NCBI RefSeq assembly: GCF_013623775.1
Contig: NZ_JABFAM010000010.1
Coordinates: 62,001 to 126,000 of the forward strand
Origin: Rufibacter sp. XAAS-G3-1
GTDB taxonomy: Bacteria > Bacteroidota > Bacteroidia > Cytophagales > Hymenobacteraceae
DNA: 64,000 bases
Direction: 5' to 3'
A program made the translations under genes and the position numbers. This document shows positions 45,540-59,865 of the stretch, piece by piece (position 1 is the first letter of the stretch; each line of letters opens with the position of its first letter). The notes beneath the pieces are model-generated. The model ran no database searches, was not told the DNA's origin, and saw nothing but the letters and a program-made list of their open reading frames with translations.

Positions 45540-45650
45540 AGATGTGAAGATTGGGTAATGAGGAGATTTGAAGATGTGGAAATTTGAAGATTACAATAAA
45601 TACATCAACTTCTCATTTCCAAATCTCCTCATTACCCAATCTTCACATCT
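45540..45650. repeat. 31-bp perfect inverted repeat overlapping the trpA stop
   Basis: Arms about 45540-45570 and 45620-45650 (AGATGTGAAGATTGGGTAAT... and its complement). The right arm overlaps the trpA stop codon (TAG at 45651-45649). It lies inside the trp operon, between trpA and the DAHP synthase, and could attenuate or process the transcript. Confidence 0.8.
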
Positions 45651-51164: not shown

Positions 51165-52577
51165 TTAGATAGTGGCGGCTTTTTCCAAGGCCTTCCGCAG
51201 GGCGGCCAGTTTGTGGTGCACTTCGTTCAGTTCGCTTTGGGTGTCTGACTTGGCCACCACCCCAGCCCCGGCCTGGAAATACAGGGTATTCTTCACGCTC
51301 AGGAACGACCGAATCATGATGGCATGGTTGAAATCTCCGCCGAAGCCCAGGTACCCGATGCAGCCGCCGTAATAACCCCGGCCCGTAGGCTCTAGTTCAT
51401 CAATCAAGGTGAGGGCGCGGTGTTTGGGAGCGCCCGACAAGGTACCGGCCGGAAACGTATCTGCCACCATCTGCACCGAGCCGTGCGCCTGCGGCAGGTT
51501 GGCGGTCACTTTGGAAACCAGGTGAATCACGTGCGAATAGTACTGCACTTCTTTGAACACCTCTACCTGCACGTGGTCGCCGTGGCGGCTGAGGTCGTTG
51601 CGGGCCAGGTCTACCAGCATCACGTGCTCTGAGTTCTCCTTGGGATCGTCATAGAGTTTCTGCGCCAGTTCGGCATCGGCGGCGTCATTGCCGGTGCGCT
51701 TGAACGTGCCCGCAATGGGGTAAATGGTGGCTACGTCGTTCTTGATGGTTAACTGCGCCTCGGGCGAAGACCCGAAAATCTTGAAGTTGCCGTAGTCAAA
51801 GTAGAACAGGTATGGTGATGGGTTAATAGACCTCAAGGCGCGGTACACGTTGAACTCATCGCCCTGGAACGACTGCGAAAACCGGCGCGACAACACAATC
51901 TGGAACACGTTGCCCAGGTGGCAGTGGCGTTTGCCCTCTTCTATGATGCGCAGGAACTCTTCATCGGTCTGGTTCGTGGTTTCCTCCCCGGCCGTAGCGA
52001 AGTGGAAGGCCGGGAAGTTCTTGTTTTGAATAAGCGTCTCCAGTTCATCCAAGCCGTCGTTTTGGGGCTGATTTCCTGAAAAGTGCTCAAAAATGTACAG
52101 CTCGTTTTTGAAATGGTCAATGGCAATCACAAACCGGAAAGCCTGGTACAGAATCTCGGGCATCTCGGCGTGCGCCGATTCTTTCTCTTGTAATTCCAGC
52201 GTCTCAAAGTATTGCACCGCCTCAAACGACATGTACCCGAACAACCCGTTCTGGATAAACCCGAACGGCCCGGCCTCCGCCTTAAACGACTCGCAATACG
52301 TTTGGAGCAGATGCACCGCATCGCGCTTCTGCGCCAATACCTGTTCTTCTACCGTGCCGTCTGGGTAAGAGCGGCGCAGCACGTTGTCTTTCAGCCGGAA
52401 CTCCGCGATGGGTTCGCAGCAGATGTAGGTGAAACTGTTCTCCTGGCCGTGGTAGTCAGAGCTTTCCAGCAGCAGGCAGTTGCGGTACTTGTCGCGGAGT
52501 TGCAGGTAAATGCCCACCGGGGTCACGGTGTCGGCGAGGAGTTGGCGGTATTGCGTTTGTAGGGTGTAGGTCTTCAT
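51165..52577 (-). CDS. trpE: Anthranilate synthase component I
   Basis: Makes anthranilate from chorismate with TrpG ammonia. The start at 52577 (MKTYTLQTQYRQL) follows the attenuator; an earlier ORF start at 52619 is inside the hairpin. LLLESSDYHG is the Trp feedback site, and PAGTLSGAPKHRA and GGCIGYLGFGGDFNHAI are catalytic segments. A piece of the short palindromic repeat at 52057-52093 encodes part of a variable loop near residue 170. First gene of trpEGDCFBA-aroF. Confidence 0.96.
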   Translation of the reverse strand: MKTYTLQTQYRQLLADTVTPVGIYLQLRDKYRNCLLLESSDYHGQENSFTYICCEPIAEFRLKDNVLRRSYPDGTVEEQVLAQKRDAVHLLQTYCESFKAEAGPFGFIQNGLFGYMSFEAVQYFETLELQEKESAHAEMPEILYQAFRFVIAIDHFKNELYIFEHFSGNQPQNDGLDELETLIQNKNFPAFHFATAGEETTNQTDEEFLRIIEEGKRHCHLGNVFQIVLSRRFSQSFQGDEFNVYRALRSINPSPYLFYFDYGNFKIFGSSPEAQLTIKNDVATIYPIAGTFKRTGNDAADAELAQKLYDDPKENSEHVMLVDLARNDLSRHGDHVQVEVFKEVQYYSHVIHLVSKVTANLPQAHGSVQMVADTFPAGTLSGAPKHRALTLIDELEPTGRGYYGGCIGYLGFGGDFNHAIMIRSFLSVKNTLYFQAGAGVVAKSDTQSELNEVHHKLAALRKALEKAATI

Positions 52578-52584
52578 AAAAGGA

Positions 52585-52622
52585 ATAAAAAAAGGCTTAC
52601 TGTTTTGGTTGAACAGCAAGCC
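52585..52622 (-). terminator. Second trp attenuator terminator (T2)
   Basis: Minus-strand hairpin GGCTTGCTGTT / AACAGTAAGCC (11 pairs counting one G-U, 7-base loop) followed by T7, eight bases before the trpE ATG. Its 5' arm, extended as AAGGGCTTGCTGTTC (52611-52625), can instead pair with GAACAGCAGGCCCTT (52653-52667), which starts in the stop codon of the second leader peptide. Confidence 0.85.
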
Positions 52623-52665
52623 CTTTAAGGTATAGGCAAGTTTAGATTAGGCAAGGGCCTGCTGT

Positions 52666-52725
52666 TCACACATTTTCCAATGGGTGCCACCAACACATCA
52701 TTCCGCTAATCATTTCTCGTTTCAT
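52666..52725 (-). CDS. trpL2: Second trp leader peptide (Trp-Trp codons)
   Basis: 19 aa, MKREMISGMMCWWHPLENV, with two adjacent Trp codons (TGG TGG, codons 12-13). The TGA stop overlaps the antiterminator arm at 52653-52667. If charged tRNA-Trp is scarce the ribosome stalls about 20 bases upstream, leaving the arm free to block T2; a ribosome reaching the stop would cover the arm and let T2 form. In-frame ATGs at codons 5, 9 and 10 are alternative starts. Confidence 0.78.
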   Translation of the reverse strand: MKREMISGMMCWWHPLENV

Positions 52726-52754
52726 TCTGCTCTTTTATTAGTTGTTCTGAACGC

Positions 52755-52794
52755 GTTAAAAACACCAAAGGCCCGGGTGAATCCGAGCCTTTGG
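52755..52794 (-). terminator. First trp attenuator terminator (T1)
   Basis: Minus-strand CCAAAGGC.CGG / CCG.GCCTTTGG hairpin (52765-52776, 52783-52794), then TGTTTTTAAC. The loop and 5' arm (CGGATTCACCC, 52775-52785) can instead pair with GGGTGAACCG at 52820-52829 just after the first leader stop. Confidence 0.83.
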
Positions 52795-52830
52795 TTATGG
52801 TACATTTCTGCACAGCAAGCGGTTCACCCA

Positions 52831-52884
52831 TCAGTTTTGACGTGCGTGCCACCAGGCGTTGTGCGAAAATTGTGTCTTGTTCAT
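52831..52884 (-). CDS. trpL1: First trp leader peptide (Trp-Trp codons)
   Basis: 17 aa, MNKTQFSHNAWWHARQN, with Trp codons 11 and 12. Four bases after a -7 box (TACATTTG), so the message may be leaderless or nearly so. Its stop lies 1 base before the GGGTGAACCG antiterminator arm, the same design as the second leader. Two WW leaders in series before one operon is the unusual feature here. Confidence 0.8.
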   Translation of the reverse strand: MNKTQFSHNAWWHARQN

Positions 52885-52888
52885 GTTG

Positions 52889-52918
52889 CAAATGTAGGAG
52901 CCAGAAAATGATTCGCAA
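52889..52918 (-). promoter_or_regulatory. trp operon promoter
   Basis: Minus strand: TTG (52918-52916), 19-base spacer, TACATTTG (52896-52889): the Bacteroidota TTG-N19-TAnnTTTG consensus. The transcript should start near the trpL1 ATG. Confidence 0.65.
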
Positions 52919-52989
52919 GAAAAGTGTCAAAAAAAGATGCACTTTCTCAAAAATAGGCTAAAAACCTACTATTTCCGTACTTTTAACCT

Positions 52990-59361: not shown

Positions 59362-59818
59362 ATCAGTGAGCCGGCTTATCGCTGCGCCTTTGGGCGGAGA
59401 GGAAAGTCCGGGCAACGCAGAGCATCCTGCTTCCTAACGGGAAGGCACCTGGCGGGAGACGGCCAGGTGACAGCCAGTGCCACAGAAAATAACCGCCCGT
59501 TTTTAGTTGTCAGTTTTTAGTTATCAATTGTTAGAAAACTAAAAACTGATAACTAAAAACTGACAACTAAAAACGGGTAAGGGTGAAAAGGTGCGGTAAG
59601 AGCGCACCAGCGGCTAGGCGACTAGTCCGGCTGGGTAAACCTCAGGAGTTGAAAGACCAAATAGGCTGACAGCGCCTCGCCTTAAGGGGAGGCTAAGGGC
59701 TGCTCGTCCGATGTCAGCGGGTAGGTTGATGGAGCCCCTCCGTGAGGACGGGCCTAGATAAATGATAAGCCATCTGCCCCAGGGCGGAGGACAAAACCCG
59801 GCTTACAGGCTCATTGGT
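59362..59818 (+). ncRNA. rnpB: RNase P RNA (class A)
   Basis: Catalytic RNA of tRNA 5' processing. Hallmarks: P1 ends GUGAGCC and GGCUCAUUGG, the universal GAGGAAAGUCCGGGC at about 59397, the ACAGAA motif at 59482, the GGUAAGGGUGAAA(A)GGUGCGGUAAGAGCGCACC block and the CAUAAAUGAUAAGCCAU-like 3' segment, then CCGGCUUACAGGCUC. A 31-bp palindrome is inserted in the P12 region at 59496-59577. A T-rich tract follows the 3' end. Confidence 0.95.
59496..59577. repeat. Palindromic insert in the P12 helix of rnpB
   Basis: Perfect 31-bp arms CCCGTTTTTAGTTGTCAGTT... (59496-59526) and complement (59547-59577), with internal TTTTTAGTT repeats. An A/T-rich hairpin within a G/C-rich RNA, most likely an inserted repeat that extends P12. 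Confidence 0.88.
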
Positions 59819-59865
59819 TTTTTTTTATTTTTCCCTTCCTTTTTTTTTGCCAATCTTCTTTGGGG

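Follow-up and report, generated by a model that had tools for sequence, protein, structure and literature searches.

Why should a single trp operon be preceded by two short reading frames that both carry adjacent Trp codons? The question is raised by a stretch of 64,000 nucleotides (nt) from Rufibacter sp. XAAS-G3-1 (contig NZ_JABFAM010000010.1, positions 62,001 to 126,000; hereafter the window), a genus of the Cytophagales, family Hymenobacteraceae. The operon, trpEGDCFBA, lies on the minus strand and ends with trpA at 45649; trpE and trpF score below the curated cut-offs of their models, and the remaining five genes each match above one. We find that trpE is preceded by two complete predicted ribosome-mediated attenuators, each made of an open reading frame (ORF) with a Trp-Trp (WW) pair, a protector hairpin, an antiterminator arm and an intrinsic terminator. 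Read on the minus strand towards trpE, the order is a promoter-like box, leader 1, terminator T1, leader 2 and terminator T2.

A preliminary description of this DNA, made from the sequence alone, had pointed out the duplicated attenuator, and that observation is confirmed. The two WW leader ORFs at 52884-52831 and 52725-52666 read as it had given them, and its positions for T1 (52755-52794) and T2 (52585-52622) are correct within a few bases, the hairpins spanning 52795-52764 and 52626-52590 with T tracts after them. It had also proposed that each arm pairs with the 5' side of the following hairpin: complementary arms are present in both units, but the partner in T1 is the loop together with the first two bases of the 3' stem.

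The proposal that the two units act as successive gates for a single signal is supported and is in our view the best reading: one transcript would carry a series of two transcription attenuators, each ribosome-mediated and each sensing charged tRNA-Trp (probability roughly 0.87). That transcript would begin at the leader-1 AUG or next to it and would meet the attenuators in turn. A ribosome held on the Trp-Trp codons would open the protector hairpin and free the arm, which could then pair with the loop or the 5' side of the incoming terminator, and the polymerase would continue; a ribosome reaching the stop codon would cover the arm, and the terminator would form. The operon would be expressed only if both gates were passed, so that readthrough would be the product of two Trp-dependent probabilities, and two gates would be expected to give a steeper and wider response than one.

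Shared architecture and chance controls

Both units follow a common plan. The WW codons are followed by a His codon, at whose first base (unit 2) or third base (unit 1) the protector hairpin begins; the arm overlaps the 3' half of this hairpin and is complementary to the loop or 5' side of the terminator. In each unit the first base of the arm is the 20th past the second Trp codon (52849 to 52829; 52687 to 52667), and across our whole sample of leaders the distance from WW to a GTGAAC-like motif has a median of 19 nt (99/157 distinct units with the motif found). As expected of ribosome-mediated attenuators, both short ORFs bear consecutive codons for the end product in 15/15 Rufibacter genomes, intrinsic terminators (T1 and T2) stand before the first structural gene and, in silico only, antiterminator and terminator are mutually exclusive according to ribosome position.

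Hairpins by themselves are no proof, since the 1-kb region holds two that resemble terminators against 1.3 (standard deviation 1.4) in its shuffles. The complete unit, that is a WW ORF, a terminator and a complementary arm, occurs twice in all 15 Rufibacter leaders and in 0/1100 dinucleotide shuffles of sampled leaders.

Conservation and covariation in Rufibacter

All 15 Rufibacter genomes that have a trpE match keep both units. Conservation in relatives was a check suggested in the preliminary description, and the outcome was favorable: the WW peptides and terminators of the two units are all found in 15/15 genomes, and the pairings hold in most cells. The only gaps between ATG and WW are of 3 nt in leader 1 (L015, L017) and of 6 nt in leader 2 (L010), whereas the spacing between the units spans all three frames (4, 6 and 5 genomes); this comparison is based on the leader alignment, as ATG-to-WW lengths from our census script are multiples of three by construction. 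Taken together, the protector, terminator and small accessory helices are paired in 93.3% of cells, with 9 double-changed pairs against 3.5 in shuffles (0/500 as high).

We also considered a cross-pairing between the unit-1 spacer GCTTGCTGT and the unit-2 arm ACAGCAGGC. Although 91.1% of its cells pair, 142 of 500 shuffles reach its covariation score, and it was dropped; the outer protector helix of unit 1 accounts at least equally well for the conserved spacer.

In a sixteenth Rufibacter genome (G063), no trpE match reaches E <= 1e-50; those present are weak and lie in the C-terminal half (E 2.5e-36). Two genomes of genus g2 (G001, G007) likewise have no match at this threshold and show weak matches in the C-terminal half. 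With weak matches at E of about 1e-34 to 1e-36, the three may possibly represent Trp auxotrophs or assembly gaps.

Detection by covariance models

Model R2, a covariance model built from 37 units of other genera with Rufibacter and Adhaeribacter left out, finds both units in 15/15 Rufibacter loci. In the window, the two units stand out with E-values of 7.4e-10 and 5.6e-5, the next best match being at 0.063; these values are rough, from a short calibration, and palindromic terminators such as T2 give weaker matches on the opposite strand. Over the 15 loci, the downstream unit scores 49-68 bits (E 2.8e-11 to 1.8e-7) and the upstream unit 30-41 bits (E 6.5e-6 to 8.4e-4).

Since unit 2 outscores unit 1 at every one of these loci, and adjoins trpE as the single unit of many relatives does, one may imagine that the downstream unit alone regulates and that the upstream one is a relic or a constitutive damper. 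We consider this unlikely: unit 1 retains its WW codons, frame, protector, arm and terminator in 15/15 genomes, 8 of its 13 terminator pairs are invariant, and, besides lying nearer to the promoter, it is similar to the only unit that Adhaeribacter has.

The window's leader gives no Rfam match above a family's cut-off, and no family matched in the trp leader of the eight relatives' loci scanned. The Trp_leader family (RF00513) stays below its gathering cut-off of 41 bits, with 12.8 bits (E 8.5) over unit 1, in a weak alignment that spans the whole model, and no match listed over unit 2. T-box models are absent from the window's gathering matches and from a scan of 52570-52930 at E <= 10.

A further model, R1, matches at E <= 0.01 in at least 271 of 390 genomes of the order, and not all of these matches are trp leaders. 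Among seven matches away from trpE that were examined (gene names assigned by eye; L278 and L280 not used), three lie before trpB-trpA (L272, L273, L275) and two before trpG (L274, L277), in one case with trpD and trpC next; the other two have no trp gene after them and look like plain terminators. Leaders before these other trp genes are of the same attenuator type and carry WW, WHW, WFW or similar codons. The analysis brings out a widespread trp leader without an Rfam family match in the window or in the relatives scanned.

Switching in silico

Leader RNAs were folded on the assumption that the 3' edge of a ribosome lies 17 nt past the first base of its P-site codon. A ribosome on the Trp codons then masks the protector's 5' half but not the arm, and a ribosome at the stop codon masks the arm. 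With the RNA ending before arm 4, the median antiterminator probability over the 15 genomes is 0.98 (unit 1) and 1.00 (unit 2) with the ribosome at WW, 0.25 and 0.23 with the ribosome at the stop codon, and 0.11 and 0.72 with no ribosome. In unit 1 of the window, the 2:3 pairing has a probability of 1.00 with the ribosome on the Trp codons and the RNA ending at 52773. Folding with and without a masking ribosome, another check suggested at the outset, yields the expected switch while the terminator is still incomplete. The same contrast is seen in 132 single-unit leaders outside Rufibacter (including a few duplicates), where a stalled ribosome brings the antiterminator above 0.5 in 127 leaders, against 28 when the ribosome stands at the stop codon.

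The values without a ribosome could suggest a first gate that is off by default and a second that is on. This order is seen in the window's genome, yet in only 10 of the 15 Rufibacter genomes, and six tandem leaders from another genus, g108 (see below), show the opposite order at the median; the off-then-on order is not a general rule.

Several points weigh against two working gates. At equilibrium, the full terminator hairpin wins despite a stalled ribosome (median 1.00, both units), with the window's own unit 2 as an exception, and indeed wins at the median in all ribosome states; the switch must therefore be kinetic, with commitment taking place co-transcriptionally. With the ribosome at the stop codon, the antiterminator can still reach 0.58 in unit 1 and 0.92 in unit 2 (L013), and the folding contrast is partly built in because our detector selects for arms. 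Two genomes (L005, L006) share a 1-nt deletion after the Trp codons that moves the leader-2 stop 18 nt downstream. As regards covariation, one slid control (-3) also has 9 double-changed pairs, at 33.5% of cells paired versus 93.3%, and pair types are no more numerous than in shuffles (103/500). The antiterminator helices are paired in 92.7% of cells and nearly invariant, so that covariation is silent on them: their score is reached by 429 of 500 shuffles. Finally, kinship among sequences can push scores past those of shuffles without any structure.

As a separate observation, leader 2 of L005 and L006 has three Trp codons, at a place where most others encode Cys-Trp-Trp.

Transcript start and initiation

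The motif TAnnTTTG lies exactly 4 nt upstream of the leader-1 ATG in 15/15 Rufibacter genomes. In Flavobacterium psychrophilum, the promoter box occupies positions -12 to -5, and leaderless mRNAs form a small minority of 5.5% (PMC9723704). A box at this position, 4 nt before the AUG, would place the start at the A of the leader-1 AUG; the transcript is therefore predicted to start at or next to this codon, and leader 1 to be leaderless. The motif is absent from the 60 nt before leader 2 in all 15 genomes (other promoter types not tested), so that internal initiation within the same transcript would be the simplest way for leader 2 to be translated. The phylum's mRNAs are said to lack Shine-Dalgarno sequences (PMC9723704), and a double attenuator in such a phylum raises a question about coupled translation. 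Of the 184 distinct WW leaders in the whole sample, 123 have the box no more than 45 nt from an in-frame ATG, with spacing that varies.

The trpL of Sinorhizobium is a trans-acting leader RNA. Unit 1 might similarly constitute a separate small RNA gene, with unit 2 under its own promoter: termination in unit 1 would release an RNA of about 125 nt, and we count in favor of this idea the trans-acting trp leader peptide reported in Sinorhizobium (PMC7298713). It remains quite improbable in view of the missing TAnnTTTG before leader 2, the WW codons and the single architecture common to both units; moreover, a trans role of unit 1 would not exclude a cis role. That the downstream unit acts chiefly on trpE translation rather than transcription, as the 9 nt between the end of the T2 T tract and the trpE AUG might suggest, is highly improbable given the at least five consecutive T of T2 in 15/15 genomes, which fits an intrinsic terminator; the stretch before the AUG is also A/T-rich.

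Distribution and origin of tandem units

A duplicated attenuator had been presumed rare, and tandem units indeed occur in two genera among the 221 distinct trpE leaders sampled (236 minus 15 duplicates). This sample was picked by trpE similarity and genus rather than as a full survey, and includes some other orders of the phylum. A single unit is the commonest arrangement (132 leaders); 46 leaders have a WW ORF without a detected unit, 21 have no WW ORF and 22 were called as having two or more units. Among the latter, L210 was not counted, its first ORF being a stray GTG-started GC-rich match; L089/L294, called single by the detector, has two units according to the model. After correction, the 22 tandem leaders comprise 15 from Rufibacter and 7 from the Fulvivirga-type genus g108. 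The 14 readable g108 genomes divide evenly into 7 with tandem units and 7 with a single unit; one more is cut by a contig end. The proximal leader stretch is identical in L071 (Fulvivirga marina) and L288 (a g108 genome).

Many of the 46 leaders with a WW ORF and no detected unit belong to Hymenobacter, where absence of a second unit is less certain because the likely arm lies within the ORF. In the peptides encoded by the Hymenobacter leaders (L026-L032, L037-L049), WWWP is present and the C-terminal part (SGRDNLCVR) is conserved; judged by eye, TCCGGACGGG inside the ORF is the likely antiterminator arm.

Two TGGTGGCA sites 130-160 nt apart are found in 74 of 395 genomes of the class, the window's included, and a backward control is also found in many. 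Among 30 loci checked for this pair, the window's is the only one with two units, and two others had one stray unit each; other spacings and post-WW codons were not searched.

Judged by their sequences, neither Rufibacter unit is a recent copy of the other. A recent duplication within the genus was considered and rejected: mean identity between units 1 and 2 is 0.45 (5 and 6 sequences), and higher values are obtained between unit 1 and Adhaeribacter (0.54) and between unit 2 and other Cytophagales-type units (0.56). The closest relative of unit 1 is the single unit of Adhaeribacter, with which it also groups in a FastTree tree (short alignment, support not examined), and that of unit 2 is the common Cytophagales type. 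The leader peptide has 17 residues in 13/15 Rufibacter unit 1 and in 8/8 Adhaeribacter, whose single unit also has the promoter box just upstream. Either an ancestor may have possessed both units, the second being lost in Adhaeribacter, or Rufibacter may have gained one.

Four of the eight Adhaeribacter genomes (L018-L021) have a conserved short ORF downstream of the attenuator and ahead of trpE, where Rufibacter has unit 2. It ends in FRTNYYW(Q/R)G, is rich in Phe, Tyr and Trp, and is followed by no clear terminator; it may be a degenerate unit 2 or an additional aromatic sensor.

Comparison with known systems

The trpL leader of E. coli is a single leader-peptide trp attenuator. Rufibacter shares with it, and with RF00513, the adjacent Trp codons, the 1:2, 2:3 and 3:4 pairings and a T-tract terminator before trpE; it differs by its two attenuators in series, a first ORF predicted to be leaderless and the lack of a significant RF00513 match. 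T-boxes bind tRNA directly, whereas in Rufibacter the sensing is proposed to occur through ribosomes that stall on leader ORFs. Where T-boxes stand in tandem before trp operons, a case reported exclusively in Bacillota, they resemble the Rufibacter leader as serial transcription gates answering the same signal before trp genes, and pseudo-cooperative responses are expected of tandem riboswitches with identical ligands (PMC12452182). In the mgtCBR leader RNA of Salmonella, likewise, two short tandem leader ORFs act by attenuation, a case called a singular example in PMC3641672; the signals there differ (ATP and proline), whereas in Rufibacter Trp codons are found in both ORFs, and a separate terminator follows each. 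Tandem T-boxes and mgtCBR are the nearest published parallels. Closer in phylogeny, Flavobacterium psychrophilum, of the same phylum, shows strong indications that leader peptides control operons for amino acids by attenuation; 'tryptophan' and 'trpE' are absent from the main text of that article, and no tandem case was found in its accessible part (PMC9723704). The literature searched, which reached few subscription journals, yielded no description of a pair of leader-peptide attenuators that respond serially to the same signal, and the preliminary description's statement that none was known in this lineage stands within the same reach.

A bolder conjecture, which may well prove wrong, is that serial same-signal attenuation is a recurrent solution for trp: Cytophagales would have built a ribosome-stalling double gate at least twice, in Rufibacter and in the Fulvivirga-type genus, as Bacillota did with tandem T-boxes, with gate 1 using a leaderless 5' AUG and gate 2 internal initiation. 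If so, the pair of units would also compare two modes of initiation. Serial gating in Rufibacter would mean that leader-peptide attenuators, like T-boxes, lend themselves to stacking for a single signal; it would also offer a natural setting in which to ask if a second gate multiplies the range or makes the response sharper.

Feature coordinates

Table 1. Elements of the trp leader in the window, in the order of transcription; conservation refers to the 15 Rufibacter genomes.
Feature	Position	Strand	Remarks
Candidate promoter -7 box TACATTTG (consensus TAnnTTTG)	52889..52896	-	4 nt upstream of leader-1 AUG
Leader peptide 1 ORF MNKTQFSHNAWWHARQN	52831..52884	-	ATG and WW invariant in alignment, 15/15
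Outer protector helix GCACA (52864-52860)/TGTGC (52814-52810), either side of Trp codons	52810..52864	-	90.7% of cells paired; two double-changed pairs
Trp-Trp codons, leader 1	52849..52854	-	invariant 15/15
Protector hairpin 1 (1:2), overlapping antiterminator arm	52825..52846	-	95.0% of cells paired; one double-changed pair
Antiterminator arm 1 GGGTGAA	52823..52829	-	complementary to TTCACCC (52781-52775); 98.1% of cells paired
Terminator T1 hairpin, 13 pairs then TTTTT	52764..52795; T tract 52762-52758	-	91.3% of cells paired; 8/13 pairs never vary
Leader peptide 2 ORF MKREMISGMMCWWHPLENV	52666..52725	-	ATG and WW invariant in alignment, 15/15
Trp-Trp codons, leader 2	52687..52692	-	invariant 15/15
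Protector hairpin 2 (1:2)	52667..52686	-	88.3% of cells paired; four double-changed pairs
Antiterminator arm 2 GAACAGCAGGCCC	52655..52667	-	complementary to GGGCTTGCTGTTC (52623-52611), one G-U; 89.7% of cells paired
Terminator T2 hairpin, 15 pairs, T tract to 52587	52590..52626	-	99.1% of cells paired; at least 5 consecutive T in 15/15
trpE, first gene of trpEGDCFBA	51165..52577	-	ATG at 52577

Elsewhere in the window, a bacterial RNase P RNA of class A is found at 59363-59821 on the plus strand (273.8 bits).
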